Below are positions 37,233 through 61,281 of a stretch of DNA of 64,000 nucleotides, piece after piece. The DNA is from Promicromonospora iranensis (GTDB lineage Bacteria > Actinomycetota > Actinomycetes > Actinomycetales > Cellulomonadaceae). The notes under the pieces are model-generated. The model saw nothing but the letters and a program-made list of their open reading frames with translations. It had not been told where the DNA came from and did not search any database. The stretch lies in the NCBI RefSeq assembly GCF_028994805.1, contig NZ_JAJQQP010000014.1:62001-126000 (forward strand), given 5' to 3'. A program made the position numbers and the translations under genes. The number at the start of each line of letters is the position of its first letter. Positions within the stretch are counted from its first letter, which is position 1.

Positions 37233-37240
37233 CCCCACAT

Positions 37241-37304
37241 CGTTGAGTGCTGGTTATTTGTGGGGTCAGAACGTTTCGAGACCACAAATACCCAGCACTC
37301 AACG
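37241..37304. terminator. 23-bp hairpin between convergent genes
   Basis: Arms 37241-37263 and 37282-37304 pair at 22 of 23 positions around an 18-base loop. It begins 8 bases after the synthetase stop and its right arm overlaps the last codons of kynureninase on the other strand. It serves both convergent genes. Confidence 0.75.
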
Positions 37305-38820: not shown

Positions 38821-41800
38821 ATGTTCCGCTCCGCCACACCACGCCACGCACCGGGCCCGGTGCCCAGACCGGGACGAGCTCCCGCCCTCCTGTCCGTGCT
38901 CACCGCGGCCGCCCTCACGGCGGTGACCCTCGTGCCGGTGACGGCCGTCGCCGCTCCAGGTGTCCTCTCCGCGGGTGCGCCCGCGGCAGCCAGCAGCAAC
39001 AACGCGCCCTACCTCGCCGACAACCTGACGGACGGCGACCCGGCCACCTACTGGGAGTCGGCCAACGACAACTTCCCGCAGTGGGCACAGGTGGACCTGG
39101 GCACGGGCGCGACGGTCGAAGAGGTGGTCCTCCGCCTGCCGGCCACGTGGGAGGCACGGACCCAGACCCTGTCCGTCCAGGCCGGTACCGACGGCTCCGC
39201 CTTCACGACCCTCGCGGCGAGCGCCCAGCGACGGTTCGACCCGGCGTCGGGGAACACGGTGACCATCGACGTCCCGGACACGAAGGCGCGCTACCTGCGG
39301 GTCGCCGTCTCCGCGAACAGCGGCTGGCCGGCGGGCCAGCTGTCCGAGCTCGAGGTCCGCGGCACGCGGGCGGCTCCTGACCCGGACGAGCCGGTGGAGG
39401 GCACCGACCTCGCGGCGGGCCGCGGTATCCAGGCGTCGTCGACGCAGTGGACGTACGTCGCCACGAACGCCAACGACGGCGACACCGCCACGTACTGGGA
39501 GGGTGCGGGCGGGCAGTACCCGAGCACGCTCGCGGTGACGCTGGAGTCCGCGGCCGAGCTGAGCGCCGTCGTGGTGAAGCTGCCGCCGGCCACGGCCTGG
39601 GGGCCGCGGACGCAGACCTTCGAGGTGCAGGGCCGCGCGGGCTCCGGGGATGCGTGGGCCACGCTCGCGCCGTCGGCCGGCCGTGCCTTCTCACCGGCGA
39701 CGGGCAACACCGTGACCGTTCCCGTCAGCGGGACCGCGCGCGAGGTGCGGCTGCGGTTCACCGGCAACACGGGCTCGGGCAACGGACAGGTGGCCGAGCT
39801 GCAGGTGTTCGGCGCACCCGCGGCGAACCCGAACCTGACGGTCACCGGCATCAGCGCCGACCCGGCGTCGCCCACGGAGTCGGACGACGTCACCCTGTCC
39901 GCCGTCGTGAAGAACGTCGGGTCGAAGGCCTCGGCCGCGACGGACGTGTCGTTCACCGTCGACGGAGACCCGGTGGCGACCGGCCGGGTGGGTGCGCTCG
40001 ACCCGGGCGCCGAGGCGACGGTCACCGCCGACATCGGCTCGCAGGAGGCGGGGTCCTACGAGATCGGCGCCGTCGCCGACCCGTCGGGGGCGGTCGCGGA
40101 GCAGTCCGAGACGGACAACGCCTCCGTGCACCCGGACCCGCTGGTGGTGACCGAGATCCCCAGCTCGGACCTGGTCCCGACGGTGTCGTGGACACCGACC
40201 ACCCCGGCGGCGGGCGAGACCGTGAAGTTCTCGGCCCGGATCGCGAACCGGGGCACGCTCGCCACCAGCTCCGGCGCGCACGGCCTCACGCTCTCCGTGA
40301 AGAACGACCGGGGCGCCGTGGTCCGCACCCTGACGGGATCCGTCTCGGGCGCCATCGCGGCGGGCGGCACCAGCCAGAGCGTGGACCTCGGCTCCTGGAC
40401 TGCCGCCGACGGCTCCTTCGACGTCACCGTGACGGCGGCCGCCGACTCGACGGAGGTCGCGGCCAAGCGCGCGAACAACGAGGTCACGCAGTCGTTGTTC
40501 ATCGGCCGTGGTGCGGACCTGCCGTTCGACACCTACGAGGCGGAGGACGGCGTCTCGGGTGGCGGTGCGGTCGCCGTCGGGCCGAACCGCGTGGTCGGTG
40601 ACGTCGCCGGCGAGGCGTCCGGGCGCCGGGCGGTCACGCTGGGCACGACAGGCGCGTACGTCGAGTGGACCACGCGGGCGACCGCCAACTCCCTCGTGGT
40701 GCGGTTCTCCATGCCGGACGCCGCGGGCGGTGGCGGCACCGACGCCACGCTGGCGGTCTACGTCGACGGTGAGTTCCTCAAGAACATCGACCTGACCTCG
40801 CGGTACGCGTGGCTGTACGGCCCCGAGGCGAACCCGGGCAACCAGCCCGGTCAGGGCGCACCACGGCACATCTACGACGAGGCGAACACCCTGCTCGGCA
40901 CGACCGTCGAGGCAGGGTCGACCATCCGGCTGCAGAAGACCGCGAGCAGCACGAGCCGGTACACCGTCGACTTCGTCGACCTGGAGCAGGCGACGCCGCA
41001 GGCCAACCCCGACCCGGCCCGGTACGTGGAGCCCGCCGGGTTCTCCCACCAGGCCGTCCAGGCCGCGCTCGACCGGTTCCGGATGGACACGACGGGCAAC
41101 CTGGCCGGGGTCTACCTCCCCGCCGGCGACTACCAGACGGCCAACAAGTTCCAGGTCTACGGCAAGGCGGTCGACATCGTGGGTGCCGGGCCGTGGTTCA
41201 CGCGGTTCCATGCGCCGGCCTCGCAGGAGAACACGGACATCGGGTTCCGGGCCGAGGGGACGGCCAACGGCTCGACGTTCCGCGACTTCGCCTACTTCGG
41301 CAACTACACCTCGCGGATCGACGGCCCTGGCAAGGTGTTCGACTTCGCGAACATCTCCGACATGACCATCGACAACATCTGGGTCGAGCACATGATCTGC
41401 ATGTTCTGGGCCGCCAACATGGACGACTCGGAGATCAAGGACTCCCGGATCCGCAACACGTTCGCCGACGCCCTGAACATGACCAACGGCAGCGCGAACA
41501 ACCACGTGCACAACAACCAGGCGCGGGGCACCGGGGACGACTCGTTCGCGCTCTTCGCCGCCACCGACGCCGGTGGCAGCGGCCAGCGGGGCAACGTGTT
41601 CGAGAACCTGACGTCGACGAACACCTGGCGGGCCGCCGGTCTCGCCGTCTACGGCGGGCAGGACAACACGTTCCGCAACATCTACATCGCGGACACGCTC
41701 GTCTACTCCGGCGTGACCATCAGCTCGCTGGACTTCGGGTACCCGATGGAGGGGTTCGGCCCGGCTCCGACCACCTTCGAGGGCATCTCCGTGGTGCGCT

Positions 41801-42183
41801 CCGGCGGGCACTTCTGGGGTGACCAGGTGTTCCCGGCGGTGTGGATGTTCTCGGCCTCGAAGGTGTTCACCGCCATCCGGGTCAACGACCTCGACATCGT
41901 GGACCCGACGTACTCCGGGATCATGTTCCAGACCCAGTACATCGGCGGACAACCGGTGAACCCGATCCAGGACACGGTGTTCACCGACGTGTCGATCACC
42001 GGCGCCCAGCGCAGCGGCGACCGGTACGACGAGCGGTCCGGATACGGGATCTGGGCCAACCCGATGCCGGAGGCGGGCCAAGGACCGGCGGTCGGCTCGG
42101 TGACGTTCACCAACCTGACCCTGGAGAACAACTACCGCGACATCGTGAACGACACCTCGACGTTCACGATCACCCGCAACTGA
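38821..42183 (+). CDS. Secreted GH87-like alpha-1,3-glucanase with discoidin, CARDB and CBM modules
   Basis: A 1120-residue secreted protein. Order: signal peptide (1-46); two discoidin/F5-8-type modules (about 50-185 and 195-335); two CARDB modules (340-445 and 447-560, SDDVTLSAVVKNVGS and GETVKFSARIANRG); a CBM35-like module (568-725, YEAEDG); and a right-handed beta-helix catalytic domain (733-1120). The helix carries MICMFWAANMDDSEIKDSRI and RGTGDDSFALF, matching the paired catalytic Asp region of mycodextranase/alpha-1,3-glucanase family GH87. It would cut fungal cell-wall alpha-glucan. ATG at 38821 opens the signal peptide. It separates kynU from the dioxygenase genes. Confidence 0.85.
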   Translation: MFRSATPRHAPGPVPRPGRAPALLSVLTAAALTAVTLVPVTAVAAPGVLSAGAPAAASSNNAPYLADNLTDGDPATYWESANDNFPQWAQVDLGTGATVEEVVLRLPATWEARTQTLSVQAGTDGSAFTTLAASAQRRFDPASGNTVTIDVPDTKARYLRVAVSANSGWPAGQLSELEVRGTRAAPDPDEPVEGTDLAAGRGIQASSTQWTYVATNANDGDTATYWEGAGGQYPSTLAVTLESAAELSAVVVKLPPATAWGPRTQTFEVQGRAGSGDAWATLAPSAGRAFSPATGNTVTVPVSGTAREVRLRFTGNTGSGNGQVAELQVFGAPAANPNLTVTGISADPASPTESDDVTLSAVVKNVGSKASAATDVSFTVDGDPVATGRVGALDPGAEATVTADIGSQEAGSYEIGAVADPSGAVAEQSETDNASVHPDPLVVTEIPSSDLVPTVSWTPTTPAAGETVKFSARIANRGTLATSSGAHGLTLSVKNDRGAVVRTLTGSVSGAIAAGGTSQSVDLGSWTAADGSFDVTVTAAADSTEVAAKRANNEVTQSLFIGRGADLPFDTYEAEDGVSGGGAVAVGPNRVVGDVAGEASGRRAVTLGTTGAYVEWTTRATANSLVVRFSMPDAAGGGGTDATLAVYVDGEFLKNIDLTSRYAWLYGPEANPGNQPGQGAPRHIYDEANTLLGTTVEAGSTIRLQKTASSTSRYTVDFVDLEQATPQANPDPARYVEPAGFSHQAVQAALDRFRMDTTGNLAGVYLPAGDYQTANKFQVYGKAVDIVGAGPWFTRFHAPASQENTDIGFRAEGTANGSTFRDFAYFGNYTSRIDGPGKVFDFANISDMTIDNIWVEHMICMFWAANMDDSEIKDSRIRNTFADALNMTNGSANNHVHNNQARGTGDDSFALFAATDAGGSGQRGNVFENLTSTNTWRAAGLAVYGGQDNTFRNIYIADTLVYSGVTISSLDFGYPMEGFGPAPTTFEGISVVRSGGHFWGDQVFPAVWMFSASKVFTAIRVNDLDIVDPTYSGIMFQTQYIGGQPVNPIQDTVFTDVSITGAQRSGDRYDERSGYGIWANPMPEAGQGPAVGSVTFTNLTLENNYRDIVNDTSTFTITRN

Positions 42184-42201
42184 CCACCCCCACCGGCAAC
42201 C

Positions 42202-42231
42202 CGCCGAGGTAGTCAGCTGACTACCTCGGCG
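42202..42231. repeat. Perfect 30-base palindrome of the CCGAGGTAG family
   Basis: CGCCGAGGTAGTCAG is followed immediately by its exact complement, with no loop. It lies 19 bases after the GH87-like stop. Its right half contains the stop codon and last two codons of the convergent amidohydrolase. It matches the hairpin at 54444-54542 over 12 to 15 bases per arm. Confidence 0.8.
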
Positions 42232-43084
42232 TGGGGATGCGGCGGGCCGAGCGGAGCCAGGCGATCAGCTCGGCCGCCGTTCCCGGCATCGGGAGCGGCG
42301 CCGTCAGCACCAGGGCGTCCGCCGGGCCCAGCACCGCGCGCCGCAGCTGCTCCCCCGTCAGGCCCACGGCACCCAGCAGCTCGATCTCGCGCTCGTTCAC
42401 CCCCACCGGCGTCGGGCCGTTGCCCATGTCCGTGCCGTAGACGAGCGTGCCGCCCGCCGCGACGAACCGCCGCGCGTTGTCGAGCGCCAGCTCCAGACCG
42501 GCCCTCCGGCCCGGCCCGTCGTGGATCGCGAGCGTGGAGATCCAGGTCATGGGGGCCCCGCGGGCGATCAGCTCCGACGACAGCGACTCCGTCCAGGGCA
42601 CGTGCACCAAGGTGTCCGCCCCCGCGTCGAGCGCACGCTCGGCCTGGCCCGCACCCTCGGCGTGCACGACCACCGGCAGCCCTGCCGCGTGCGCCTCGTC
42701 AGCCAGCGCCCGCAGGACGTCGTCGGGCAGCAGGACCATGCCCGCGTGCAGAGCCACCTTGACCGCGAAGCCGCCCCCGGCGACGACGTCCGCCACCGCC
42801 TCGGCGGCGGCCCGCGGCGAGGCGACGTGCCGCACGGCGGCGTCCGGCGCCCACGAGCGGCCGCTCGGGTACCCGCCGGGCGCGGTGTGGAACGGCCCGA
42901 CGTACCGCACCCGGACGCCCGACGGCGGCGTGGCCGCCCACCCGGTCGTCTCGCGCGGGTCCCAGCCCAGGTCGTGCACCTCGGTGACCGGGCCGTCGGC
43001 CAGGAGCGCCCGGTCGACAAGGCCCAGGTGCACGTGGCGGTCGACGACGCCCGGGAGCGTCACCTCCGGCACGCCGTCAGGCAC
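42221..43084 (-). CDS. Amidohydrolase-superfamily protein in the kynurenine gene cluster
   Basis: A 287-residue metal-dependent hydrolase. Ligand motifs are complete: HxH in VVDRHVHLG near 16-20, Lys in [10 protein letters not shown] near 110, His in VVVHAEG near 141, His in LVHVPW near 160, and Asp in [10 protein letters not shown] near 219, indicating a binuclear site. It starts at the first strand of the barrel and lacks the usual N-terminal beta-sandwich. GTG start; it overlaps the dioxygenase stop by 8 bases, so the two are co-translated. No kynurenine formamidase gene is present, so it is a candidate for that step. The last residues TPR and the stop come from a repeat element. Confidence 0.8.
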
Positions 43085-43937
43085 CGAGCGGGCCGTCGAT
43101 CTCGGTGCGCACCGAGATGAGCTCGGGGAAGAACGTCAGGTCCAGGGCACGCTTGAGGAAGCCCACGCCGCTCGAGCCACCCGTGCCGGTCTTGAAGCCG
43201 ATGGTGCGCTGCACGGTGCGCAGGTGGCGGAAGCGCCACAGCTGGAACGCATCCTCGATGTCGACCAGGTCCTCGCAGGCCTCGTACAGCTCCCAGTTGC
43301 CGTGCGGGTCCTCGTAGATCGTCTTGAAGACGGCGATCAGCTCCGGGTGCTCGGCCCAGGCCTGCGTCACGTCGCGGTCCAGGATCTCGGCCGGGACGGG
43401 ATGTCCGCGCCGCGCCAGCAGGCGCAGGAACGCGTCGTACACGGTGGGCTCCGCCAGGAGCTGGGCCAGCTGCGCGTGCACCTCGGGCTTGTCGCGGAAC
43501 ACCTGCAGCATCCCGGCGTTCTTGTTGCCCAGCAAGAACTCCACGGCTCGGTACTGGTGCGACTGGAAGCCGGAGGACTGCCCCAGCGACCCCCGGAACT
43601 CCGCGTACTCGCTGGGCGTGAGCGTCGCCAGCACCGACCACTGCTCGGTGATGGTGCGCTGGATGTGCTTCACCCGGGCCAGCCCCTTGAGCGCCCGCGA
43701 CAGGTCGTCGCCGTCGAGGAACCCGCGCACGGCACGCAGCTCGTGCACCACGAGCTTGAGCCACAGCTCGGTGGTCTGGTGCTGGATGATGAACAGCAGC
43801 TCGTCGTGGTGCGGCGGGTCGCTCATCGGGTGCTGCGCCGAGAGGAGCTCGTCGAGCCCCAGGTAGGAGCCGTAGTCCATCTCGTCGCGGAAGTCCGTGC
43901 GGAGGGAGGCCTCGATGGGTCGGGTGTTACCAGTCAC
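43077..43937 (-). CDS. kynA: Tryptophan 2,3-dioxygenase
   Basis: A 286-residue haem enzyme that oxidises tryptophan to N-formylkynurenine. Conserved motifs: [52 protein letters not shown], and [20 protein letters not shown], which carries the proximal haem His. Length is normal. The chosen GTG at 43937 gives a short N-terminus; the open frame continues upstream into a dispersed repeat, which is unlikely to be coding. Co-translated with the amidohydrolase; kynureninase is further along the strand. Confidence 0.93.
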
Positions 43938-43967
43938 CTCTGGAGCGTAACCCCGCCCTGTTGGCTG

Positions 43968-44020
43968 TGAGCGCGACCGTTGCGACTGTCTGCCCGGTTG
44001 AGGCGCAATGATCACGCTCA
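43968..44020. repeat. Dispersed palindrome TGAGCGCGACCGTTGCG, copy 2
   Basis: The left arm TGAGCGCGACCGTTGCG (43968-43984) is identical to that at 20097. The right arm (44004-44020) differs from a perfect complement at three positions. Flanks TTGG and CCAA extend the symmetry. It lies between the divergent tail of hipA and the dioxygenase start. Confidence 0.7.
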
Positions 44021-44030
44021 CGACCAAGGG

Positions 44031-45284
44031 TCAGGCTGCTCGGGCCTCGTCACCGTTCGGGTTCTCGAAAGCCTCCGCCATCAGTGCGATCTCCTCGGGC
44101 GGGAGCGACATGTCGTGCGCGATGCGCGTCCAGCCGGACGTCGCCGCCGCGACCTCGGCGAGCACCCGGCGCGCGTCGTCCTGCCGAAGGCCGTAGGAGT
44201 CCGCGGTGGCCAGCAGCTCCCGCACGTCCCGGTCGATGCGGCTCCCGCCGGGGCGCAGCGGCGTCGACTCGGCGACCGTGAACGGGTTGGGGTTCACGTC
44301 GAACAGCGGAGAGAGCGACCAGCCGTCCGGACGGCGCAGGAAGCCGTGGTTCTTCATGTGGTCGTCCACGTTGCGCACGAGCAGCGTGAACGCGACGCGG
44401 CGGAACAGGTCGTGCCCGTCCGTGGCCGGCCGGCCCGAGTGGTCCGCCAGCGTCTCCGCGAGCGTCCGGTAGTCGATGACCTCGAAGAAGGCCTTCTGCG
44501 TGAGGCTGTCGGCGGACAGGAAGCCGATGCGTCCGCCGTCCGGCCGCCGGTCGAAGCGCCGCGTCAGCAGGATGGACCGTGCGGGGCCGATGCGGTGCAG
44601 GCGTGCCACGGGCACCTCGATGCCCGCGTCCGAGGCCAGCCGCAGCGTCAGGTACTCCCAGGCCTGGACGTCCCACCGGTCGCCGCTCTCGGGCAGCTTG
44701 GCCATCCACAGGTCGCCGGCGCTGTCCTTCACCGTCACCTTGGGCCGCGCTCCGCCCATCGAGGTCCCGGCGGCGACCAGGAGCCGCACGTCGTGGTCGG
44801 TCTCCCGGTGCTGCGCGACGGCGTCCGCGGCGGCCGTCAGCGACGGCAGGTCCACCAGGTCGGGGACCTCCGCCCGCGGCGGGCCCATGAAGGTCCTGCC
44901 CTCGTCGAGCGAGAACCGCAGCGCCCCCAGGCGGGTCTCGTCCTGCACCCCGAGCAGGAAGTCCACCTCGGTGAGGGTCATGAAACCGCGGCCCTCGGCG
45001 CGAGCGGCACGCCGCTCCGCGTGGAACAGCAGGGTGCGGCCCCACTGGTCGGGCTGACAGTCCGCGAGGACGCCGAACAGGGGCCGGTCGCTGCCGGAGG
45101 GGATGTTCCCCGGCGTCAGCGGCAGCTCCGGGCACAGGGCGTACGCGCGCGGGTCGCGCAGGTAGGCGGCGTCGTAGCGGAACGTGCAGCCCACCAGGGC
45201 ACCGCCCCGGTTGAGGTGCATGTCGAGGTCACCGGCGCGCGCCTGACCCCCGCCCGGCAGCTCGACCTCGACGTGTATCGACAC
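44031..45284 (-). CDS. hipA: HipA-family toxin kinase
   Basis: A 417-residue Ser/Thr kinase-fold toxin. N-terminal HipA domain (about 5-100), SMGGARPKVTVKD near 175 (the P-loop-like region with the ATP Lys further on in LWMAKLP), catalytic RNVDDHMKNHGFL near 305 with Asp and Asn, and metal-binding SPLFDVNPN near 328. HipA toxins phosphorylate aminoacyl-tRNA synthetases and slow growth. GTG start, 14 bases after the antitoxin stop, which fits co-translation. All catalytic residues are present, so it should be active. Confidence 0.92.
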   Translation of the reverse strand: MSIHVEVELPGGGQARAGDLDMHLNRGGALVGCTFRYDAAYLRDPRAYALCPELPLTPGNIPSGSDRPLFGVLADCQPDQWGRTLLFHAERRAARAEGRGFMTLTEVDFLLGVQDETRLGALRFSLDEGRTFMGPPRAEVPDLVDLPSLTAAADAVAQHRETDHDVRLLVAAGTSMGGARPKVTVKDSAGDLWMAKLPESGDRWDVQAWEYLTLRLASDAGIEVPVARLHRIGPARSILLTRRFDRRPDGGRIGFLSADSLTQKAFFEVIDYRTLAETLADHSGRPATDGHDLFRRVAFTLLVRNVDDHMKNHGFLRRPDGWSLSPLFDVNPNPFTVAESTPLRPGGSRIDRDVRELLATADSYGLRQDDARRVLAEVAAATSGWTRIAHDMSLPPEEIALMAEAFENPNGDEARAA

Positions 45285-45298
45285 CGCGGCTCACCTTC

Positions 45299-45601
45299 TC
45301 AGCTCGGCACCCTGACGCGCTGCGGCAGGGCGCGTTCCGCGTGGAACCTGCCCATCTCGGTGGTCAGCGGGTCGGTGGCGCCGACGACGGCGTCCGCCAC
45401 CCCGAGCACCCGCAGCACCGCGAACGTGTTCTCCAGGCTCACCGTTCCGGTGCCCGTCTCGATCGCGCGGAGCGTGGTGCGGGTGATGCCCGCACGGTCG
45501 GCGACGAGCTGGGCCGTGAGACCGTGGATCTTGCGCCAGGCACGGACGTGGTCGCCGAGTGTGGCGAGGTCACGCCGGGTCCGGAGGGAAGTTCTGGCCA
45601 T
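45299..45601 (-). CDS. hipB: HipB-family XRE antitoxin
   Basis: A 100-residue DNA-binding antitoxin. Helix-turn-helix at about 15-70: LGDHVRAWRKIHGLTAQLVADRAGI, TRTTLRAIETGTGTVSLENT. It neutralises HipA and represses the operon. ATG follows AAAGGAG. Palindromic GGTCAC sites lie just upstream. Confidence 0.9.
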   Translation of the reverse strand: MARTSLRTRRDLATLGDHVRAWRKIHGLTAQLVADRAGITRTTLRAIETGTGTVSLENTFAVLRVLGVADAVVGATDPLTTEMGRFHAERALPQRVRVPS

Positions 45602-45614
45602 GACTGCTCCTTTC

Positions 45615-45665
45615 GGTCACCAGGCTAGCCGACGGACCGCGTAATGGTCACTAGGGTGACCGTTA
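45615..45665. promoter_or_regulatory. GGTCAC operator sites upstream of hipB
   Basis: GGTCACTAGGGTGACC (45646-45661) is a palindrome extended by TAAT/GTTA on its flanks, and a further half-site GGTCAC lies at 45615-45620, 14 bases before the hipB start. This matches the multi-site autorepression expected of HipB. Confidence 0.6.
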
Positions 45666-45710
45666 TTCGCGCGGTCCCGGCGAGTGGACCCACCGACAGG
45701 ACCGGACACG

Positions 45711-45750
45711 GCAGAACGGGCCGCCCCACCATGGGGGCGGCCCGTTCTGC
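45711..45750. terminator. 17-bp hairpin after the amino-acid binding lipoprotein gene
   Basis: Arms GCAGAACGGGCCGCCCC (45711-45727) and its exact complement (45734-45750) enclose a 6-base loop. It begins 19 bases downstream of the stop at 45769 on the minus strand and separates that gene from hipBA. Confidence 0.85.
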
Positions 45751-45768
45751 AGGACGTTCAGCGGTGCG

Positions 45769-46683
45769 CTACGGCTGCTGGTTGTTGACCGTGGCCGTCG
45801 CCAGAGCACCCTCGGAGAGGTCGTGCTTCTCGAGGATCTGGGCGTACGTACCGTCGTCGATGATGCTCTGCAGCGCCGCCTGATACGCCCCGACCAGCTG
45901 GACGTCACCCTTGAGGAACCGGAAGCCGAGCGGCGTCGGGTTGATGATCTCGGTGTTGCCGACCTCGAAGACGTCACCGGAGCCGATCTGCTTCGCGTTG
46001 TACGCGCCGGTGGACCACTGCGTGAGCTCGGCGTCGGCCTTGCCGGCCTGGACCTGGGCGAGCGCGTCGGCGTCGGTCTCGAACTCGACGATCTTGACCG
46101 GCTTCGCCCGGCAGTCACCCGCGTTGAGCCCGGTGAGCGCCTCCGCCTGCGTGGTCTCGACGAGCACGGCCACCGTGCGGCCGCACAGGTCAGTGAGCTT
46201 CGTGATGCCCTCGGGGTTGCCGGCCGGGACCATGATGGCGTCGCTGTCGTTGTAGTAGTCGACGAAGTCGGAGTCGGCTCGGCGCTCGGCCGTGTCCGAC
46301 ATGGCCGCGGCGACGATGTCGACGTTGCTCGCGTACAGCTCGTCGACGAGCGAGTCCCACGGCATGTCGTGGAACGTGTACTTCAGGCCCAGCCGGTCCG
46401 AGGCAGCGTCGAACAGGTCGATCTCGAACCCGACGATGCGCCCGGCCTCGTTGGTGTACTCGAAGGGCGGGTAGCCCGACTCCGTACCGACCGTGATGCG
46501 CGTGGACTCCGCCAGCAGCTCACCCGGCAGCATCGCGCGCAGCTGCGGATCGACCTCGACCGTCTGCTCAGCGGCTTCCGCCGACTCGTCCGAGCTGGTC
46601 GAGCAGCCGGTCATCAGTGCCCCGAGCGCGGTGGTGACCGCGATAGAGCCAATGACCGCAAGCGCGCGGTGTCCGAGAGCCAT
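45769..46683 (-). CDS. ABC transporter substrate-binding lipoprotein, family 3 (amino acid)
   Basis: A 304-residue lipoprotein. Lipobox LMTGC near 27 gives the lipidated Cys. Family 3 motifs: ITVGTESGYPPFEYTNEAGR near 62, VGFEIDLFDAASDRLG, DIVAAAMSDTAERR near 122, and CGRTVAVLVETTQ near 168. The ligand is probably an amino acid or related compound. ATG at 46683 follows GGAGG; the longer open frame is not supported. No permease or ATPase is adjacent, so it is an orphan binding protein. A GTGAAtccgagtTTCAC palindrome lies at 46759-46775 in its promoter region. Confidence 0.88.
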   Translation of the reverse strand: MALGHRALAVIGSIAVTTALGALMTGCSTSSDESAEAAEQTVEVDPQLRAMLPGELLAESTRITVGTESGYPPFEYTNEAGRIVGFEIDLFDAASDRLGLKYTFHDMPWDSLVDELYASNVDIVAAAMSDTAERRADSDFVDYYNDSDAIMVPAGNPEGITKLTDLCGRTVAVLVETTQAEALTGLNAGDCRAKPVKIVEFETDADALAQVQAGKADAELTQWSTGAYNAKQIGSGDVFEVGNTEIINPTPLGFRFLKGDVQLVGAYQAALQSIIDDGTYAQILEKHDLSEGALATATVNNQQP

Positions 46684-46803
46684 GCGGGGTCCTCCACACA
46701 AAAAAGACATGATGAGCGAGTTACGCGGGTGGAGCCTATACGGTCCTGGCGGATTACTGTGAATCCGAGTTTCACCTACGCCCACGGGCCGTGACACCGG
46801 GGC

Positions 46804-49800
46804 TCAAGCGCTGGTGCCGACCTTAGCCGCAGCCCCCACGTCCGCCAGAATCACCGCATCAATGAGACCCCGCGCCCACTCCAGCACCTCGGTACCCCGC
46901 AGCGGTCGGCCACCGATCCGCGCGGTCGTCGGGAACGGGACGAGGATCGCCCGGATGGCCGGCTTGAGCACCGTCCCGGGGTAGAGCCGCTTGAGTCGCA
47001 GCTGCGCCGACTCGGGCAGGTTCACGGGCGCGAACCGGACGTACTTGCCCTGTGCGGTGATGTCCGTGAGCCCCGCCTGGCGGGCGTGGTTCCGGAAGCT
47101 CGCGACGTCGAACAGGGCGCCCGCGACGTCGGGCAGGGCGCCGTAGCGGTCGGTGAGCTCGGCGCGTACCTCGTCGAGGGCCGCGGCGTCGTGGGCCGTG
47201 GCGATCTTCTTGTACGCCTCCAGCCGCAGCCGCTCCGTGGCGATGTACGCCTCCGGCAGGTGGGCGTCGACGGGCAGCTCGATGGTGACCTCGGGCGCCT
47301 CTTCCTCGGCGTCGCCGCGGAAGGCGGAGACCGCCTCGCCCACCATGCGCACGTAGAGGTCGAACCCGACGCCGGCGATGTGCCCGGACTGCTCGCCGCC
47401 GAGCAGGTTGCCCGCCCCGCGGATCTCGAGGTCCTTCATGGCGATCTGCATGCCGGCGCCCAGGTCGGTGTGCGCGGCCATGGTGGCGAGCCGGTCGTGC
47501 GCCGTCTCGGTGAGCGGCTTCTCCGGCGGGTAGAGGAAGTACGCGTAGGCGCGCTCGCGCCCGCGGCCCACCCGACCGCGGAGCTGGTGCAGCTGGGACA
47601 GGCCCAGCATGTCGGAACGCTCCAGGATCAGGGTGTTGGCATTGGAGATGTCCAGGCCGGTCTCGATGATCGTGGTGCACACCAGGACGTCGAGCTCCTT
47701 CTCCCAGAAGGCGCGGATGACCTGGTCGAGCTGGTGCTCGCTCATCTTGCCGTGGGCGACGCCGACACGGGCCTCCGGCACCAGCTCGTTCAGTCGTGAG
47801 GCGGTGCGCTGGATGGTCTCCACCTTGTTGTGCACGTAGAAGACCTGCCCCTCGCGGAGCAGCTCGCGCCGCAGGGCGGCGGCGATCTGCTTCTCCTCGA
47901 AGGCGCCCACGTAGGTGAGCACGGGGTGGCGCTCCTCCGGGGGCGTGGCCAGCGTGGACATCTCACGGATGCCGGTCACCGCCATCTCCAGCGTGCGCGG
48001 GATCGGGGTCGCGGACATGGCCAGCACGTCCACGTTGGTGCGCAGCTGCTTGAGCGTCTCCTTGTGCTCGACGCCGAAGCGCTGCTCCTCGTCGACGACC
48101 ACCAGGCCCAGGTCCTTGAACACCACGGAACCGGTGATGAGACGGTGGGTACCGATGACGACGTCGACGCTGCCGTCCTTGAGACCGGCGAGCGTCTCCT
48201 CCGACTCCTTCGCCGACTGGAACCGGCTCAGCGCCCGCACGTTGACGGGGAACCCGGTGTACCGCTCGGAGAACGTCTCGAAGTGCTGCTGCACCAGGAG
48301 CGTGGTGGGGACCAGGATGGCGACCTGCTTGCCGTCCTGCACCGCCTTGAACGCTGCCCGGATCGCGATCTCCGTCTTGCCGTACCCGACATCGCCGCAC
48401 ACCAGGCGGTCCATCGGCACGGACTTCTCCATGTCGGCCTTGACCTCGTCGATCGTCGCCAGCTGGTCCGGGGTCTCGACGTAGGCGAAGGCGTCCTCGA
48501 GCTCGCGCTGCCACGGGGTGTCGGGGCCGTAGGCGTGGCCCTGCGTCGCCATGCGCGCGCTGTACAGCCGGATCAGCTCGCTCGCGATCTCCTTGACGTG
48601 CTTGCGCGCCTTGGCCTTGGTGTTCTTCCAGTCGGCGCCGCCCATCTTGGACAGCGATGGCGACTCCCCGCCGGTGTACTTGGTGACCTGGTCGAGCTGG
48701 TCGGTGGGGACGAACAGCCGGTCGCCCGGCTGGCCGCGCTTGCTGCTCGCGTACTCGATCACGAGGTACTCGCGGGTGGCCCGGTTGCCGCCGGTGCCCA
48801 TGGTGCGCTGCGCCATCTCGACGAACCGGCCCACACCGTGCTGCTCGTGCACCACGAAGTCGCCGGCCTTGAGCTGGAGCGGGTCCACCACGTTGCGCCG
48901 TCGGCTGGGCATCTTGCGCATGTCGCGTGTGCCGGAGCCCGCACGCCCGGTCAGGTCCTGCTCGGAGAAGACCGCGAGCCGCAGGTCGGGCGCCACGAAC
49001 CCCTTACCCGCACCGCCCGCGACGACGTGGACGACGCCGGGCTCCGGCTCGTCGTCGAGCGACACGGCCAGCCGGGCAGCGGTACCCGCCTCGGACAGCT
49101 GCTCGGTCATGCGCTTGGCGGGACCGTGCCCCTCCGTGGTCAGCACGAGGCGCCAGCTCGCGACCTGCAGACCGCGCACGTCGTCGAGGGCGCGCGCGAG
49201 GTCTCCGCGGTACGACTCGACGTCCCGGGCGCTGATCGTGAACACGGTCTCGCCCGCCCCGCCGGGCTCGTCGTCACCGGCCGGTCCCAGCTCGATGTCC
49301 TGCGTGAACGACGAGAGCGTCCACCAGCCCAGGCCGCGCCGGGCCGCCACCTCACGCACCTCGGCGAACGTCGCGAAGGACGCGGCGGACAGGTCGATCG
49401 GTGCCGCGCCGCCGGCCACCGCCCCCGTCCAGGCGGCGGCGAGGAACTCCTCGGTGGTCGCCACCAGGTCGTGGGCGCGGCGGCGCACGCGCTCGGGCTC
49501 GTTGACCACGAGCAGCGCGTCGTCGGGCACCAGCTCCAGGACCGAGATCATGCGGTCCACCAGGACGGGCGCCAGCGACTCCATGCCCTCGACGGCGACA
49601 CCGGCGGCCAGCTTGTCGAGCATCTCGACGGCGCCCGGCAGGGTCTCGACGAGCTCCGCTGCGCGTGCCCGGACGGCGTCGTCCAGCAGGATCTCGCGGC
49701 AGGGCGGCGCCCAGAGCCCGCGCTCGGCGATCTCCAGGCTGCGCTGGTCGGCCACGGCGAACCAGCGGATCTCCGTGACCTCGTCGCCCCAGAACTCGCA

Positions 49801-50403
49801 CCGCAGCGGGTGGTCCTCCGTGGGCGGGAAGATGTCGAGGATGCCACCGCGGACCGCGTACTCGCCGCGCCGCTCCACCATGTCGACGCGGGTGTAGGCG
49901 GCTGCGGTGAGGCGCTCGGCGACGTCGGTCAGGTCGGCCGTGGCGCCGATGTCGAGCTGGACCGGCTCGAGCTCCCCCAGGCCCTCGACCACCGGCTGCA
50001 GCAGTGCCCGGACCGGCATCACCAGGACCCGGATCTCGGCCGCCTGCCCGTGCCCCTCCGCCGGGTGGGCCAGGCGGCGGAACACCGCGAGGCGCTTGGC
50101 CACGGTGTCCGCGCGCGGGCTGAGCCGCTCGTGCGGCAGCGTCTCCCAGGCGGGGAGCACCGCGACGTCGTCGGCACGGCCCTCCGGGAGGTACCCGCGC
50201 AGGCTCGCGGCCAGGTCGTCGGCCTCACGACCGGTCGCGGTGACCACCACGAGCGGACGCTTCTCGGACGCCGCGACCAGCAGGGGCGGGCGCACGCCTG
50301 CGGGGCCCACCACATCGGCGAAGCCACGCGCACGCACGTGCTCCACCGCGGCAGCAGCGCCAGGATCACGCAGGAGGGTAGGAAGCAGGCCGGTGAGGTT
50401 CAT
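46804..50403 (-). CDS. mfd: Transcription-repair coupling factor
   Basis: A 1199-residue translocase that removes RNA polymerase stalled at DNA lesions and recruits UvrA. N-terminal UvrB-homology modules (about 1-370), RNA polymerase interaction domain near 490-560 (FVVHEQHGVGRF), helicase motor (about 640-1000) with Walker A GDVGYGKTEIA near 667 and DEEQRFG near 766, RecG-like motifs, and a C-terminal TRCF domain. ATG at 50403 is chosen; the longer open frame upstream runs antisense through the acyltransferase gene. Typical actinobacterial location near pth-rplY-prs-glmU. Confidence 0.97.
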   Translation of the reverse strand: MNLTGLLPTLLRDPGAAAAVEHVRARGFADVVGPAGVRPPLLVAASEKRPLVVVTATGREADDLAASLRGYLPEGRADDVAVLPAWETLPHERLSPRADTVAKRLAVFRRLAHPAEGHGQAAEIRVLVMPVRALLQPVVEGLGELEPVQLDIGATADLTDVAERLTAAAYTRVDMVERRGEYAVRGGILDIFPPTEDHPLRCEFWGDEVTEIRWFAVADQRSLEIAERGLWAPPCREILLDDAVRARAAELVETLPGAVEMLDKLAAGVAVEGMESLAPVLVDRMISVLELVPDDALLVVNEPERVRRRAHDLVATTEEFLAAAWTGAVAGGAAPIDLSAASFATFAEVREVAARRGLGWWTLSSFTQDIELGPAGDDEPGGAGETVFTISARDVESYRGDLARALDDVRGLQVASWRLVLTTEGHGPAKRMTEQLSEAGTAARLAVSLDDEPEPGVVHVVAGGAGKGFVAPDLRLAVFSEQDLTGRAGSGTRDMRKMPSRRRNVVDPLQLKAGDFVVHEQHGVGRFVEMAQRTMGTGGNRATREYLVIEYASSKRGQPGDRLFVPTDQLDQVTKYTGGESPSLSKMGGADWKNTKAKARKHVKEIASELIRLYSARMATQGHAYGPDTPWQRELEDAFAYVETPDQLATIDEVKADMEKSVPMDRLVCGDVGYGKTEIAIRAAFKAVQDGKQVAILVPTTLLVQQHFETFSERYTGFPVNVRALSRFQSAKESEETLAGLKDGSVDVVIGTHRLITGSVVFKDLGLVVVDEEQRFGVEHKETLKQLRTNVDVLAMSATPIPRTLEMAVTGIREMSTLATPPEERHPVLTYVGAFEEKQIAAALRRELLREGQVFYVHNKVETIQRTASRLNELVPEARVGVAHGKMSEHQLDQVIRAFWEKELDVLVCTTIIETGLDISNANTLILERSDMLGLSQLHQLRGRVGRGRERAYAYFLYPPEKPLTETAHDRLATMAAHTDLGAGMQIAMKDLEIRGAGNLLGGEQSGHIAGVGFDLYVRMVGEAVSAFRGDAEEEAPEVTIELPVDAHLPEAYIATERLRLEAYKKIATAHDAAALDEVRAELTDRYGALPDVAGALFDVASFRNHARQAGLTDITAQGKYVRFAPVNLPESAQLRLKRLYPGTVLKPAIRAILVPFPTTARIGGRPLRGTEVLEWARGLIDAVILADVGAAAKVGTSA

Positions 50404-50607
50404 GGGTTCTGTCCTTCGAGGGCGCACGACGACGGGCCCACCACGAGGGCGACCGGGTGCGGCCGACGGGGTGAGGGGCTGATCCCAGGCTACTCCCGAC
50501 CACCGACACCGCCGTCCGGCACGGTGTGGAGCACGGTGTCGAACAGGGCGTCCGACGTCGCGGCCGGCACTGCCCTTCGAACGGCTCTGCACGTACGATG
50601 ACCCGCG

Positions 50608-51756
50608 ATGTTCACCCCCTCCGGGTCCCCACGGCACGCAGGCGCGCCGAAGCCGGGACGAGACGCCGCCGTCGGGCCGCGCACGCCTGGCCGCCTCGCC
50701 TGGCCGGACGCCGCCCGCGGCCTCGCCATCGGTCTCGTGGTGCTGTACCACGCGACCAACTGGACCTGGTCCACCGGGTACGAGGTGAGCGTGCTGCGGG
50801 AGGTCAACGAGACCCTTCGCAGCCTGCGCATGCCGCTGTTCTTCGCGGTCGCCGGCATGTTCGCCGGAAAGTGGATGACGGTGCCGTGGTCGCGGCTGGC
50901 CCGCGGCAAGCTGCTCTTCTTCGCGTGGGTGTTCGTGCTGTGGGAGCCGATCTCCCTGGTGGTCCGCCTGCTCACCGGCTACTACCAGGTGGCTGACGCC
51001 GACTGGGGCACCCTGGGCCACGACCTCGCCTGGTCGCTCCTGGTCCCCCGCTCGGAGCTGTGGTTCGTCTGGACGCTTGCGGCGTTCTTCGTGATCGCGC
51101 GGGCGCTGCGCCGTATCCCGGCACCCGTGCAGCTCGTGCTCGCCGCCTGCGTGAGCGGGTGGGCGCTCGCCGGCTGGGAGCCGGAGAGCATCGCGTGGCG
51201 CGGCACCGCACAGTTCGTGCTGTTCTTCCTGGGCGGGCTGCACCTGCGGCCGCTGCTCGAACGGTTCGCCCGGCGAGTCACCTGGCTCTGGGCGGTGGGC
51301 GCCGTCGTCGTCTGGCTCGGGATCCAGATGGCGGTGCGCGAGCTCGGTCTCGCCGGCGTCCCCGGGCTCTACCTGCTGGCGAACATCGCGGGCGTGCCGG
51401 CCGGGGTGGCGGTGAGTGTGCTGGCCTCCCGGGTGCCCGGGGTCGGGTATCTACCCAGGTCGCTCGGGTTGCAGTGGCTCGGAGCGCGGACACTGCCCGT
51501 GTTCGTGACGCACACGTCGGTGGTGCTCGGGCTCCTGTGCCTGCTCTATCGCAACGCCGTCTGGATCCCCGCCCCGCAGTCGCAGTGGCTGCCGGTCATC
51601 CTCTGGGTGGCGGCGATCACCGTCGGGCTGGGGCTGGGCGCCCTCGCGCCCCGGATCGGCGCACGCTGGCTGTTCGCCCCACCGAGGGGGCTGTCGGGCT
51701 CCACGGATGGTGTGCGGCATCCAGGGAACGCGGCGTCGAAGCCGGGGGAACGGTGA
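50608..51756 (+). CDS. Acyltransferase 3 family membrane protein
   Basis: A 382-residue membrane protein with about ten helices. The family hallmark is near the N-terminus: WPDAARGLAIGLVVLYHATNW, where His and nearby residues form the acyl-transfer site, followed by RMPLFFAVAGMFAG. A second conserved region, PVFVTHTSVV, is near 295. Members acylate cell-surface sugars or small molecules. It is monocistronic and divergent from mfd. The hydrophilic first 30 residues are probably cytoplasmic. Confidence 0.88.
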   Translation: MFTPSGSPRHAGAPKPGRDAAVGPRTPGRLAWPDAARGLAIGLVVLYHATNWTWSTGYEVSVLREVNETLRSLRMPLFFAVAGMFAGKWMTVPWSRLARGKLLFFAWVFVLWEPISLVVRLLTGYYQVADADWGTLGHDLAWSLLVPRSELWFVWTLAAFFVIARALRRIPAPVQLVLAACVSGWALAGWEPESIAWRGTAQFVLFFLGGLHLRPLLERFARRVTWLWAVGAVVVWLGIQMAVRELGLAGVPGLYLLANIAGVPAGVAVSVLASRVPGVGYLPRSLGLQWLGARTLPVFVTHTSVVLGLLCLLYRNAVWIPAPQSQWLPVILWVAAITVGLGLGALAPRIGARWLFAPPRGLSGSTDGVRHPGNAASKPGER

Positions 51757-51823
51757 CCGACCTGGTAGCCGGGGACCCGAGCCGGACCACGAGGGGCGGG
51801 CTGAGCGACGACCGCAGCGCCCG

Positions 51824-52549
51824 TCAGCCCTGTTCCGCGGCGGTCGCAGCGTAGTCGGTCGGGGTCTGACCGTAGCGATCCCGGAAGGCACGGGTGAAGT
51901 GGCCGCTGTCCGCGAACTGCCAACGGGCGGCGATCTCCGTGATGGTCGTGCGCCGAGGCCCGGCGACGAGCGCACGACGGGCCTCGTCGAGGCGACGGGC
52001 CCGGATGTACGTGCTCGGTGTCTACCCCTCGGCCGCGAACGCCCGCTGCAGTGTCCGCACGGAGACGTTCAGCTGCCGCGCCAGGATCGTCGGCGAGAGG
52101 GTGGGATCGGTGAGCCGCCGGTCGGCGATGTCCCGAGCGGCCTGTGCCAGCGCCGCCGCCAGGCGAGGCTCGACGTCGTCGAGGCCGCCGTGCACCACGG
52201 CCCGGGCCAGCTCGGCCAGGGTCTCCCGTGCGGCGTCCACGCCGGCCGGCTCCAGATCGTCCAGCAGCCGGCTCACCATGGTGGCGTGCGCGGTCAGCAG
52301 GCGCACCCCCGCGGCGTCGGCGCTGCCGGCCGCCGCGGTGCCCCCCACCCCGGCGGACGATCCACAGGCGCAGGTTGTCCTCCGCGCCGACCCGCGGGAC
52401 CGTACCCGGAAGCCGGAGACGGTCTCCCGGCTGTAGGGCGGCAGCGCGAACCTCTCGCCCATCCGGGAGCGCCACACGCGGGCGAACTCGCTGAAGGCGT
52501 TCCCGCCGCTCGGACTCATCGAGAACGTGCCGTCCATCGTGTCGCGCAT
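51824..52549 (-). pseudogene. AraC-family regulator broken by a TAG and two compensating frameshifts
   Basis: A gene of about 242 codons. The AraC-binding-like N-terminal part starts at 52549. The DNA-binding region begins DIADRRLTDPTLSPTILARQ and LNVSVRTLQRAF, then an in-frame TAG at 52022-52024 follows FAAEG. The frame continues in STYIRARRLDEARRALV, then FADSGHFTRAFRDRYGQTP to a stop at 51824, so the second helix-turn-helix is cut off. The change is probably GAG to TAG. Between about 52345 and 52395 the family-like segment VGAEDNLRLWIVRR lies in another frame, implying two compensating single-base changes. The truncated product would lack half the DNA-binding domain. Confidence 0.75.
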
Positions 52550-52760
52550 CTTCCCGGGCAGCCTGCGACCTCGACCGGGTTCAGGGTCCAGCGGCGGGCC
52601 CGGACAGCGGCGGTCCTGACCCGCACGAGCGCAATGTTGCTTTTTACCGACATCTACCCCGTACGTGGCATGTCCTGTTACTGTGTCCCACTCAGCAACG
52701 GCAAAGGCGCCGTCGCGACCGGCGGAGCCCTGGCCTCGCCCCGGTACAGCGGGAGGTCCT
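52550..52760. promoter_or_regulatory. Divergent promoter region between the AraC remnant and the dipeptidase
   Basis: The 211-base gap holds an AT-richer block at 52630-52690 (GCAATGTTGCTTTTTACC). It is the likely promoter region for the secreted dipeptidase and the AraC remnant. No clear palindromic operator is seen. Confidence 0.4.
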
Positions 52761-54455
52761 GTGCAACGCCTGCGACGCATCAGACGAACGGCTGTCCTCG
52801 CAGCTGTGGTCGCCGCCGCCTGCCTCAGCAGCACGGCGCTGGTGGCGCCGGCGTCGGCCAGCGGACCGGACGCCGGACCGCCCGCCGGCCCCGTCGCCCT
52901 GGCCGAGCCGGCGCTCCCCAGCCCGGAGTCCGAGGTCAATGCCACGGGCGTCCCCTTCACCGGCACCCGCCCGGACGGCACCGTGTACGGCCTCATCGAC
53001 GCGCACAGCCACCTGTTCATGCAGGACGGCATGGGCGGGGCCGCCCTGTGCGGCAAGGTCTTCTCGGAGCGCGGGATCGAGGCCGCGCTGCGGGACTGCC
53101 CGTCGCACGAGCCCCACGGCCTGGGCGCCCTGCTCGAGAACCTGACCCGGGACGGCTCCCCCCTCGGCACGCACGACACCACGGGGTGGCCCACGTTCTC
53201 CGACTGGCCCGCCCACGACTCGCTCACCCACCAGCAGATGTACTACCGCTGGGTCGAGCGGGCCTGGCGCGGCGGACAGCGGGTGCTCGTCAACGACCTC
53301 GTCACCAACGGGCTCCTGTGCTCCATCAACCCGGGCACCCACCAGAGCTGTGACGAGATGACGGCGATCCGGCGCCAGGCGCAGGACACCTACGACCTGC
53401 AGGCCTACGTCGACGCACAGTACGGCGGGCCGGGCAGGGGCTGGTTCCGGATCGTGACGAGCAGCGAGCAGGCACGCCAGGTGATCGAGGAGGGCAAGCT
53501 CGCCGTCGTGCTCGGCGTCGAGACGTCGGAGCCGTTCGGGTGCAAGCAGACCCTGCGGATCCCACGGTGCTCCCGGGCCGACATCGACGCCGGCCTCGAC
53601 GAGCTGTACGACCTGGGTGTCCGCTCGATGTACCTGTGCCACAAGTTCGACAACGCGCTGTGCGGCGTGCGGTTCGACGAGGGGTCCATGGGCGCGATCA
53701 TCAACGCCGGCCAGTTCCTCTCCACGGGCACGTGGTGGGACGCGCGCTCCTGCCCCGCGGACCAGCCGCACGACCACAACCCGGGCAACGGGGAGCTCCC
53801 GCCGGAGCTGGAGGACGACCTCCCGCCGGTCCTGCCCCTCTACCCGCCGGGAACGCTCTGCAACACGCGTGGCCTGACGGGGCTGGGCGCGTACGCGGTC
53901 CGCGGCCTGGTCGAGCGCAACATGATGATCGAGATCGACCACATGAGCGCCAAGGCCGCCGACCAGACGCTCGACATCCTGGAGGCGGAGGACTACCCGG
54001 GCGTCCTGTCCACGCACTCCTGGATGGACGAGCGGTATCTCGACCGGCTCTACGCCCTCGGCGGGTTCGCCACGATCTACGGGCATGCCGCCCACGAGTT
54101 CGTCGCGGAGTACGAGCGCACGGCGCCCGTCCGCGACCGGTACGGCGCGGGCATCGGGTTCGGCTTCGACATGAACGGGTTCGGCGGTACCCCACCGCCC
54201 CGGGGTGACGCGGCGGCGAACCCGGTCACGTACCCGTTCCGGTCGTTCGACGGCGGGACGGTGCTCGACCGCCAGACCACCGGCGAGCGCACCTGGGACG
54301 TCAACGTGGACGGCGTCGCGCACTACGGTCTGGTGCCCGACTACGTCGAGGACCTGCGCCTCGTGGGCGGGCAGGAGGTCGTCGACGACCTGGCGCGGGG
54401 CCCGGAGAGCTACCTGACGACATGGGCAGGAGCAGAAGCCGCCACGCCGAGGTAG
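52761..54455 (+). CDS. Secreted M19-like membrane dipeptidase family protein
   Basis: A 564-residue exported protein. Signal peptide 1-34 (RRIRRTAVLAAVVAAACLSS, ending PASAS). The catalytic barrel resembles renal dipeptidase: HxH-like DAHSHLFM near 78, Glu in VVLGVETSEP near 250, MMIEIDHMSAKAADQTLDIL near 390, and VLSTHSWMDERY near 420. Cys residues in GCKQTL, SMYLCHKF and CGVRF may form disulfides, fitting an extracytoplasmic location. GTG start follows GGGAGG. The last residues TPR and stop lie in a repeat hairpin. The substrate may be a dipeptide or a cyclic amide. Confidence 0.8.
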   Translation: MQRLRRIRRTAVLAAVVAAACLSSTALVAPASASGPDAGPPAGPVALAEPALPSPESEVNATGVPFTGTRPDGTVYGLIDAHSHLFMQDGMGGAALCGKVFSERGIEAALRDCPSHEPHGLGALLENLTRDGSPLGTHDTTGWPTFSDWPAHDSLTHQQMYYRWVERAWRGGQRVLVNDLVTNGLLCSINPGTHQSCDEMTAIRRQAQDTYDLQAYVDAQYGGPGRGWFRIVTSSEQARQVIEEGKLAVVLGVETSEPFGCKQTLRIPRCSRADIDAGLDELYDLGVRSMYLCHKFDNALCGVRFDEGSMGAIINAGQFLSTGTWWDARSCPADQPHDHNPGNGELPPELEDDLPPVLPLYPPGTLCNTRGLTGLGAYAVRGLVERNMMIEIDHMSAKAADQTLDILEAEDYPGVLSTHSWMDERYLDRLYALGGFATIYGHAAHEFVAEYERTAPVRDRYGAGIGFGFDMNGFGGTPPPRGDAAANPVTYPFRSFDGGTVLDRQTTGERTWDVNVDGVAHYGLVPDYVEDLRLVGGQEVVDDLARGPESYLTTWAGAEAATPR

Positions 54456-54542
54456 TCATCTGGCGAGGTAGTCATGCAGCGGGTAGTCAACTGGGTGACT
54501 GTCTCGCTGCATGACTACCTCGCCGGATGACTACCTCGGCGT
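54444..54542. repeat. 38-bp hairpin of the CCGAGGTAG family spanning two stop codons
   Basis: Arms 54444-54481 and 54505-54542 pair at 37 of 38 positions, the remaining one being a G/T wobble. The arm contains GAGGTAGTCAT twice. The left arm holds the TAG stop of the dipeptidase gene and the right arm the TAG stop of pth on the other strand. It would terminate both transcripts. Confidence 0.85.
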
Positions 54543-55139
54543 AGCCGTGTGGAACTTTCCCTGGGCGGCGAGCAGACCCTCGGTGACCAGCAGCTCGACG
54601 GCGTCGGCGGCGTCGTCCACCAGGATCGGCAGGTCCTTCTTCTCCGTGGCGGAGAAGTCCTTGAGCACGTGGTCCGCGGTGTCCATCCGGCCCGGCGGGC
54701 GACCGACGCCGACCCGCACCCGGTGGTAGTCCTTGGTCCCCAGCGCCTTGGTGGTGTCGCGCAGCCCGTTGTGACCGCCCTCGCCCCCGCCGATCTTGAG
54801 CTTGATCGTGTCGAAGGGGATGTCCACCTCGTCGTGCACCATGACCACCTGCTCGGGGGCGATGTCGTAGTACTTCGCGAGCGCGCTGACCGGGCCGCCC
54901 GACGTGTTCATGTACGTGGTCGGCTTCGCGAGGACCACCCGTGGCCCCGGCGCCCCGCCGGGGAGCACCCCGAGCCGCGCCTCGGCGACGACGGCCTGCG
55001 CGCGGGGGTGCTTGGAGAAGCGCGCGCCCGTGCGCTCGGCGAGCAGGTCGAGCACCATCTGCCCCACGTTGTGCCGGTTGCCGGCGTACTTGGGGCCCGG
55101 ATTGCCGAGCCCGACGACGAGCCAGGGCCGGTCACTCAT
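54531..55139 (-). CDS. pth: Peptidyl-tRNA hydrolase
   Basis: A 202-residue essential hydrolase that frees tRNA from aborted peptidyl-tRNA. Motifs: [17 protein letters not shown] near 9-25, where His is the catalytic base; [11 protein letters not shown] near 78; and [17 protein letters not shown] near 105 with the catalytic Asp. ATG at 55139 follows AAAGGA; an in-frame ATG 15 bases upstream is less likely. Its C-terminal TPR and stop are supplied by a palindromic repeat. Neighbour of rplY, as in most actinobacteria. Confidence 0.95.
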
Positions 55140-55229
55140 GTCGCGTCCTTTCAAGACAACGGACTTGCCAACAGCAGACGTCTCACGGCAGAGGTTCTCC
55201 TGCCGCAGCCGCTACGAGCGGAAACAGGT

Positions 55230-55299
55230 CGGGCCGAGGCAGAACCCGCGCCGCGCACGATCTTCTCGTGCGCGCGCCTGAAGGCTCTACCTCGGCCCG
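55230..55299 (-). terminator. Nested hairpin between rplY and pth
   Basis: Outer arms CGGGCCGAGG (55230-55239) and CCTCGGCCCG (55290-55299) enclose an inner exact stem GCGCACGA/TCGTGCGC (55253-55260 and 55266-55273). It lies 46 bases downstream of the rplY stop, so it is the likely terminator or an attenuator before pth. Confidence 0.65.
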
Positions 55300-55344
55300 G
55301 TGCGCTCCGGCTCACGCCGGGTCGCTCTGGGTGCTGCCGGGGAC

Positions 55345-55950: not shown

Positions 55951-56170
55951 GGGAATTCACTCCTGGAAGGTCTGTGTGTGCAACTCGGTCGGCGGCTGCG
56001 TCGGCGCGGGACACGTGACGGGCGCGGAGCGGGCACGTGGGACGGAGTGCTGGAGGGAACTCCACCCAGGGGCCGCCGACGGCCGCCCAGTCGATCACGG
56101 ACGCCGTCCGGGTGCTAGCGGGATCGAGTCCCGCCGCGGCCGTCAAGCGTCCCTCGCCGAGGCAACCTGA
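55951..56170 (-). promoter_or_regulatory. rplY leader and promoter region
   Basis: The 220-base gap upstream of rplY is unusually rich in complementary stretches, for example GACGGCC/GGCCGTC (56078-56084 and 56138-56144) and GCGGG-ATCGAGT-CCCGC (about 56118-56134). This could be a structured 5' leader of a ribosomal protein gene. No promoter elements are clear and no conserved leader family is recognised. Confidence 0.3.
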
Positions 56171-61241: not shown

Positions 61242-61281
61242 AACGAACACCCCTCGCGAAAAGTCGCGAGGGGTGTTCGTT
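61242..61281. terminator. 18-bp perfect hairpin with AAAG loop
   Basis: Arms AACGAACACCCCTCGCGA (61242-61259) and its exact complement (61264-61281) enclose AAAG. It lies 57 bases downstream of the 27-residue peptide gene on the minus strand. It can also end the TetR transcript from the plus strand. Confidence 0.9.

Follow-up and report, generated by a model that had tools for sequence, protein, structure and literature searches.

Intrinsic terminators that lack a U tract are termed I-shaped, and repeated extragenic palindromic (REP) sequences of the REP/RAYT type carry a GTAG or GGAG tetranucleotide 5' of the hairpin. Here, a dispersed palindromic element built on the heptamer GAGGTAG is described from a window of the genome of the soil bacterium Promicromonospora iranensis (the whole 64,000-nucleotide stretch analyzed, positions 62,001 to 126,000 of contig NZ_JAJQQP010000014.1, numbered from 1 below) and from the rest of that genome and its relatives. 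The element is a variant form of stem-loop and terminator repeats already known; judged on the features compared below, it is neither a REP sequence nor a DNA uptake sequence. It forms a dispersed, modular family of hairpins at gene 3' ends with rapid and partly concerted turnover. The hairpins are most likely U-tract-free terminators or 3'-end blocks of mRNA and would grow and be rewritten by slippage and template switching.

In Neisseria and the Pasteurellaceae, terminators made of DNA uptake sequences likewise consist of a short conserved motif whose inverted pairs form terminator-like hairpins and are most abundant between convergent genes (PMC1852404); unlike them, the present motif has fewer copies, is repeated as tandem 16-bp units in each arm, has no T tail, and differs between sister species. 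A gene-end hairpin without a T tract in a high-GC actinobacterium is a feature shared with I-shaped terminators and with hairpin-cluster terminators (PMC8355165), whereas the element described here is conserved in sequence, dispersed, and modular. REP sequences share with it the repeated extragenic palindrome and act as exact targets for insertion sequences (ISs), but in the present element the GTAG lies in the paired stem and not in a 5' foot. Families of repeated stem-loops, some of them perhaps terminators, have been catalogued (PMC2267715), and the part of that catalogue drawn on here gives three high-GC Gram-positive genomes (Corynebacterium and two Mycobacterium), none with a GAGGTAG family. 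Template switching has been described as creating and repairing perfect stems in one step (PMC8794818); that work concerns RNA genes, whereas here the mechanism would act on gene-end repeats. Paired stem changes, including changes in terminators common to convergent genes, are also described for the bidirectional terminators of Bacillus cereus (PMC5381666), which are ordinary, single, poly-U terminators, with no repeat units or family swaps in the part of that work drawn on here. No paper on the element was found among the open-access records listed, as judged from titles and the starts of abstracts, which is weak evidence of absence.

A 16-bp unit in mirrored arms at gene 3' ends

The core sequence CGAGGTAGTC occurred at 214 exact sites in the P. 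iranensis genome (104 + 110), compared with 28 (16 + 12) for the reversed control; in the window, it matched 19 times with at most one mismatch, whereas 100 shuffles averaged 5.2 matches and reached 11 at most. The palindrome pattern CGAGGTAGT-N(0-30)-ACTACCTCG gave 42 genome matches and none in the control, and because three of the matches were nested pairs, they represented 39 distinct places. The unit was 16 bp long, mostly GAGGTAG-TCA-YNYRGC, and was repeated in tandem along one arm, with mirror copies along the other and with an outer closure that was usually GCC...GGC and an inner closure that was often CACCCAG-6 nt-CTGGGTG. Exact tandem units at 16-bp spacing numbered 34 in a strict form and 58 (26 + 32) in a looser form, with none in the controls. 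There were one to four units per arm in P. iranensis and up to about six in P. citrea (G007) and P. panici (G008), and the arms could be unequal. At one P. citrea locus (L092, around position 602), six units ran in the same direction without a mirrored arm; this one-sided array is perhaps a stage before the gain or after the loss of the other arm.

Forty-two clusters with cores in both orientations, taken from the 39 loci and the window, were placed relative to genes; the loci had been selected by the palindrome and tandem patterns, which miss degenerate copies. Twenty-five clusters lay between convergent genes and 17 between co-directional genes; divergent junctions and gene interiors had none. 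An earlier note on the window, made from its sequence, had proposed that the element is dispersed among gene ends, and both this placement and the enrichment of the motif at 3' ends genome-wide bear that out. Of the 17 co-directional clusters, 16 were nearer to the stop codon of the upstream gene than to the start of the downstream gene (the exception was L059). As in intrinsic terminators, a stable hairpin stood just past the stop codon.

Hairpins of any family were called at a score of 14 or more in a 464-kb P. iranensis sample chosen irrespective of gene context; its region C3 was picked as element rich. Of the 53 convergent junctions in the sample, 25 had such a hairpin; for the 241 co-directional and 52 divergent junctions, the numbers were 37 and 2, respectively (convergent versus divergent, p = 2e-7; shuffled-gap expectation, 0.0). 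GAGGTAG elements were present at 6 convergent, 6 co-directional, and 0 divergent junctions. The GAGGTAG element is one among several hairpin families at such gene-end sites; further families in P. iranensis, named by sequence, were CTTCGAGGTCTAAGTTTCTCC, TGAGTGCGGGATATTTG, GTTGTGGGCGTGATCGTTGCG, GGTCGGCAGAACGTCAGG, and GGTCGAGCTYG.

The palindrome was found in 34 of 221 genomes of the family, covering 13 of 25 genera, and outside the family in 3 of 361 genomes of the same order, with one palindrome each. The 21 clusters placed in other genera comprised 11 convergent and 10 co-directional cases, with none divergent or within genes; their inner stem was different, and the spacing of units could be 20 bp. 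Within the genus, tandem pairs numbered 58 in P. iranensis, 243 in P. citrea, 322 in P. panici, 15 in G012 (the closest relative of P. iranensis), and 0 to 8 in the other nine genomes. Among the places listed (about 100 each for P. citrea and P. panici), the triplet that follows GAGGTAG was mostly TCA in P. iranensis and P. citrea and mostly AAC or GAC in P. panici. The core also varied, with the variant GAGGTGG in G012 and with GAAGTAG and GAGATAG units in G004, which the GAGGTAG search patterns miss.

Turnover of hairpins and paired changes in their stems

Junctions in P. iranensis region C3 were mapped onto six relatives with a single threshold of 14 throughout. Where P. iranensis had a hairpin, 55 of 72 comparisons showed one in the relative as well (20 similar and 35 dissimilar in sequence); where it had none, relatives had one in 17 of 362. 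At a threshold of 12, the corresponding values were 76 of 94 (40 similar and 36 dissimilar) versus 21 of 340. G012 carried an unrelated hairpin at four of the five comparable GAGGTAG junctions of P. iranensis, and the same kind of swap between species was seen by eye at the three window junctions. When orthologous junctions were inspected for target duplications of the type left by miniature inverted-repeat transposable elements (MITEs), they mostly carried other hairpins and not clean empty sites.

The stems themselves changed on both arms together. Double departures from the unit consensus that kept base pairing numbered 21, 11, and 5 in G000, G007, and G008, against 0.5, 0.2, and 0.1 expected for independent arms, and single-arm changes were seen in 28, 10, and 7 columns, respectively. 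At C3:29695, all four units read GAGGTAGTC in P. iranensis and GAGGTGGTC in G012, between flanks about 96% identical. At the locus of P. iranensis C3:101273, the units of G004 and G005 surrounded an inner CTGGGGCG..ACC hairpin, which G001 had alone. The paired and concerted changes fit slippage plus template switching (PMC8794818), a mechanism that we infer from the sequences compared. The notion in the earlier note that the element "lands" at gene ends covers the case only in part, since 16-bp units are also gained and elements are rewritten in situ.

In the mechanism that we favor, the hairpins most likely act as terminators: they would cause intrinsic-type termination or a 3'-end mRNA block without a U tract and, between convergent genes, would terminate transcription on both strands. 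The stem consists of one to about six 16-bp units per arm, each with GAGGTAG and YNYRGC on either side of a triplet typical of the lineage (mostly TCA or AAC). Slippage would add units in one arm, and intrastrand template switching would copy them onto the other and would place point changes on both arms, sometimes in every unit. The sites may be regarded as sockets, at which selection would keep a hairpin while the sequence family filling the site turns over between species. Stop codons would be a by-product: the unit contains TAG and 16 = 1 mod 3, so that the frame of a gene running into the array decides whether unit 1, 2, or 3 stops it.

Several points weigh against this mechanism. No hairpin was found in the relative in 17 of the 72 comparisons, and between P. 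iranensis and its closest relative, similar hairpins still stood at 10 of 16 junctions. Turnover was scored in one 200-kb P. iranensis region picked for element richness, and the strict similarity threshold puts some same-family hairpin pairs down as dissimilar. The excess of paired changes is overstated because the hairpin finder favors complementary arms, and runs of paired changes at L044, L061, and L301 may be phase errors. Three hairpins of the sample lay inside called genes, and gene starts derive from a simple in-house caller. Across all hairpin families in the sample, a U tract was largely missing, with two or fewer T's in 8 nt at 113 of 132 stem flanks and five T's at 3. Finally, movement of units between loci is not accounted for by growth and rewriting in place.

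A more tentative proposal, about which we are rather doubtful, is that of a turnover system in which the 16-bp unit enters terminators already in place at their foot, with both arms in step, multiplies, is homogenized within a locus and across many loci of a species, and later gives way to other families at a site that tends to retain a hairpin. If this were true, terminators would be modular and semi-autonomous and would undergo concerted evolution like satellite DNA, with translation stops in all frames as a by-product. 

Long perfect stems are difficult to account for by single point changes. The birth and upkeep of terminators may be directly watchable here, because one junction can be read across species with its hairpin grown, rewritten, or swapped, and the element offers an explanation, open to test, of how transcription ends in high-GC bacteria lacking U tracts.

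Mobility and protein binding as explanations

It is unlikely that the unit is simply a selfish palindromic repeat of the REP or MITE type that a transposase moves and that is found at 3' ends because insertion is tolerated there. Such a repeat would account for the spread of a near-identical unit over about 40 loci of one genome, with far fewer in most sister species, and in P. citrea, an IS end lay exactly between the GAGG and the TAG of the core in five contig ends that abut arrays (L288, L289, L290, L295, and L298). The left and right ends of this IS, found on different copies, were consistent with duplication of TAG; we take it to be IS30-like, a tentative label, the available 39-aa piece having no NCBIfam match. 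Because the same IS end sits at this point in all five contig ends, some transposase would appear to recognize the 16-bp unit, and other ISs insert into REP sequences in like manner (PMC1525189). However, the Y1 (RAYT-type) transposase PF01797 was found in none of the 13 genus genomes, with the control found in 5 of 14 known genomes. GAGGTAG elements were also missing from all 52 divergent junctions, although insertion there would also be extragenic, and the replacement by other hairpins at four of five junctions in G012 is not predicted by tolerance alone. In addition, no clean target duplication of the element was seen by eye at the window junctions.

A quite improbable alternative is that the motifs are binding sites of a DNA-binding protein, as a nucleoid, uptake, or recombination signal, which double as terminators in the manner of the Neisseria uptake sequences. 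The inverted pairs at convergent gene ends (25 of the 42 clusters) do resemble uptake-sequence terminators (PMC1852404), and palindromes with the CGAGGTAGT foot also stand at gene ends in other genera, where the inner stem differs; the conservation of this foot is partly by construction, because the foot was required in the search. The copy number is low, with 214 sites in P. iranensis and a genus maximum of 436 in P. citrea (coding sites included), whereas uptake sequences, with a motif of 9 to 11 nt, generally number about 1,000 or more (PMC1852404), and unlike a fixed protein site, the core itself varies in concert, as in G012 and G004.

A chance or coding origin, with CGAGGTAGTC as just the common codons GAC TAC CTC G read on the opposite strand, might explain several single P. 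iranensis sites that look coding by eye and the 71 to 96 sites in the eleven genus genomes besides P. citrea, but as a source of the palindromes it is practically inconceivable and is refuted by control counts of 0 against 42 palindromes and 58 tandem pairs, by the window shuffles, and by the lack of any cluster inside a gene (0 of 42).

Stop codons and hairpins of the window

Gene names in the window are Pfam matches. The single-unit perfect palindrome CGCCGAGGTAGTCAGCTGACTACCTCGGCG at 42202 to 42231, between convergent genes (RNA fold z of -6.0 on the plus strand and -6.5 on the minus strand), holds the final codons ACG CCG AGG TAG of an amidohydrolase gene (42221 to 43084, minus strand). 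The hairpin at 54444 to 54542, with two units per arm, lies between the convergent genes for an M19-type dipeptidase (52806 to 54455, plus strand; C terminus ...EAATPR-stop in the left arm) and peptidyl-tRNA hydrolase (pth; 54531 to 55154, minus strand; C terminus ...FHTATPR-stop in the right arm) and gives both stop codons, again as ACG CCG AGG TAG. Its left arm (54448 to 54473, plus strand) has two CGAGGTAGTC cores at 54448 to 54457 and 54464 to 54473, and its right arm (54513 to 54538, minus strand) has two at 54513 to 54522 and 54529 to 54538, each pair with a spacing of 16 bp. The hairpin had an RNA fold of -97.8 kcal/mol on the plus strand (z of -13.8), and the slightly longer segment 54441 to 54545 comprised two 41-nt arms, 95% complementary, with 23 nt between them.

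The palindromes and the shared ends of the three genes stand where the earlier note had placed them, as does a third, single-copy hairpin, GAGGTAGTGCC, at 29526 to 29570; this one separates the genes of a solute-binding protein and a permease and is not the source of any stop codon. Two 19-nt arms, 95% complementary, were delimited there at 29523 to 29573. The hairpin is common to P. iranensis and G012, and unrelated hairpins occupy the same spot in G002, G004, and G001, which suggests a conserved role in uneven expression of the operon.

Over the 42 clusters, including those of the window, the element gave the stop codon (the TAG of its first unit) to 9 of 67 neighboring gene ends in P. iranensis, with each convergent cluster contributing two ends and each co-directional cluster one, and each of the nine ended in xPR-stop. 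The proposed doubling of the element as a stop codon is real at these ends but is not a general role, and with only 9 of 67 ends supplied, it appears to be a side effect. Similarly, the TPR ending is common to the three window genes but does not hold genome-wide, since PPR and SPR also occur; among 348 genes of the sample, six ended in PR-stop, four of these within an element, and the window genes accounted for all three TPR ends. At 24 loci in P. citrea, stops came from unit 1 in seven cases and from units 2 and 3 in one case each, and at 14 loci in P. panici, they came from unit 1 in four cases and from unit 2 in one, a distribution that fits 16 = 1 mod 3.

Orthologues without the palindrome had other endings, none of them PR, in five of five cases for the dipeptidase and four of four for the amidohydrolase. 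Among 13 Promicromonospora, pth ended in AKA or ARA in 11 and in TPR and APR in the two that have the element; in P. panici, which has the element at the pth junction, pth ended in APR and the dipeptidase in PPR. Because orthologues lacking the element have other C termini, TPR was rejected as a feature of the proteins. Caution is warranted with the last residues of some proteins (xPR-stop), which come from a repeat rather than from the gene's own history.

An Rfam 15 scan of the window at the gathering score returned only two tRNAs, the element matching no known RNA family. A T-tailed terminator was considered and rejected: a consensus scan of 40000 to 56000 gave 5 hits versus 2.7 expected, with none at the palindromes.

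The window also held other inverted repeats. A 20-bp inverted repeat at 23329 to 23381, one of two in the sample between divergent genes, is perhaps an operator, and at 61242 to 61281, a gap between co-directional genes contains a perfect inverted repeat of 18 bp around a 4-nt loop. A hairpin at 35396 to 35465 with a 4-nt loop belongs to the TTCGAGGTCTAAGTTTCTCCG family, which had 7 copies in the 464-kb sample (by eye), none between divergent genes, and another at 37240 to 37305 belongs to a family with GAGTGC..TATTTG-like stems and 11 copies in the sample (by eye). The families GGTCGAGCTYGTCGAGA and GACCGTTGCG, at 2031 to 2084 and 20097 to 20149, occupy some of the same junctions in relatives.

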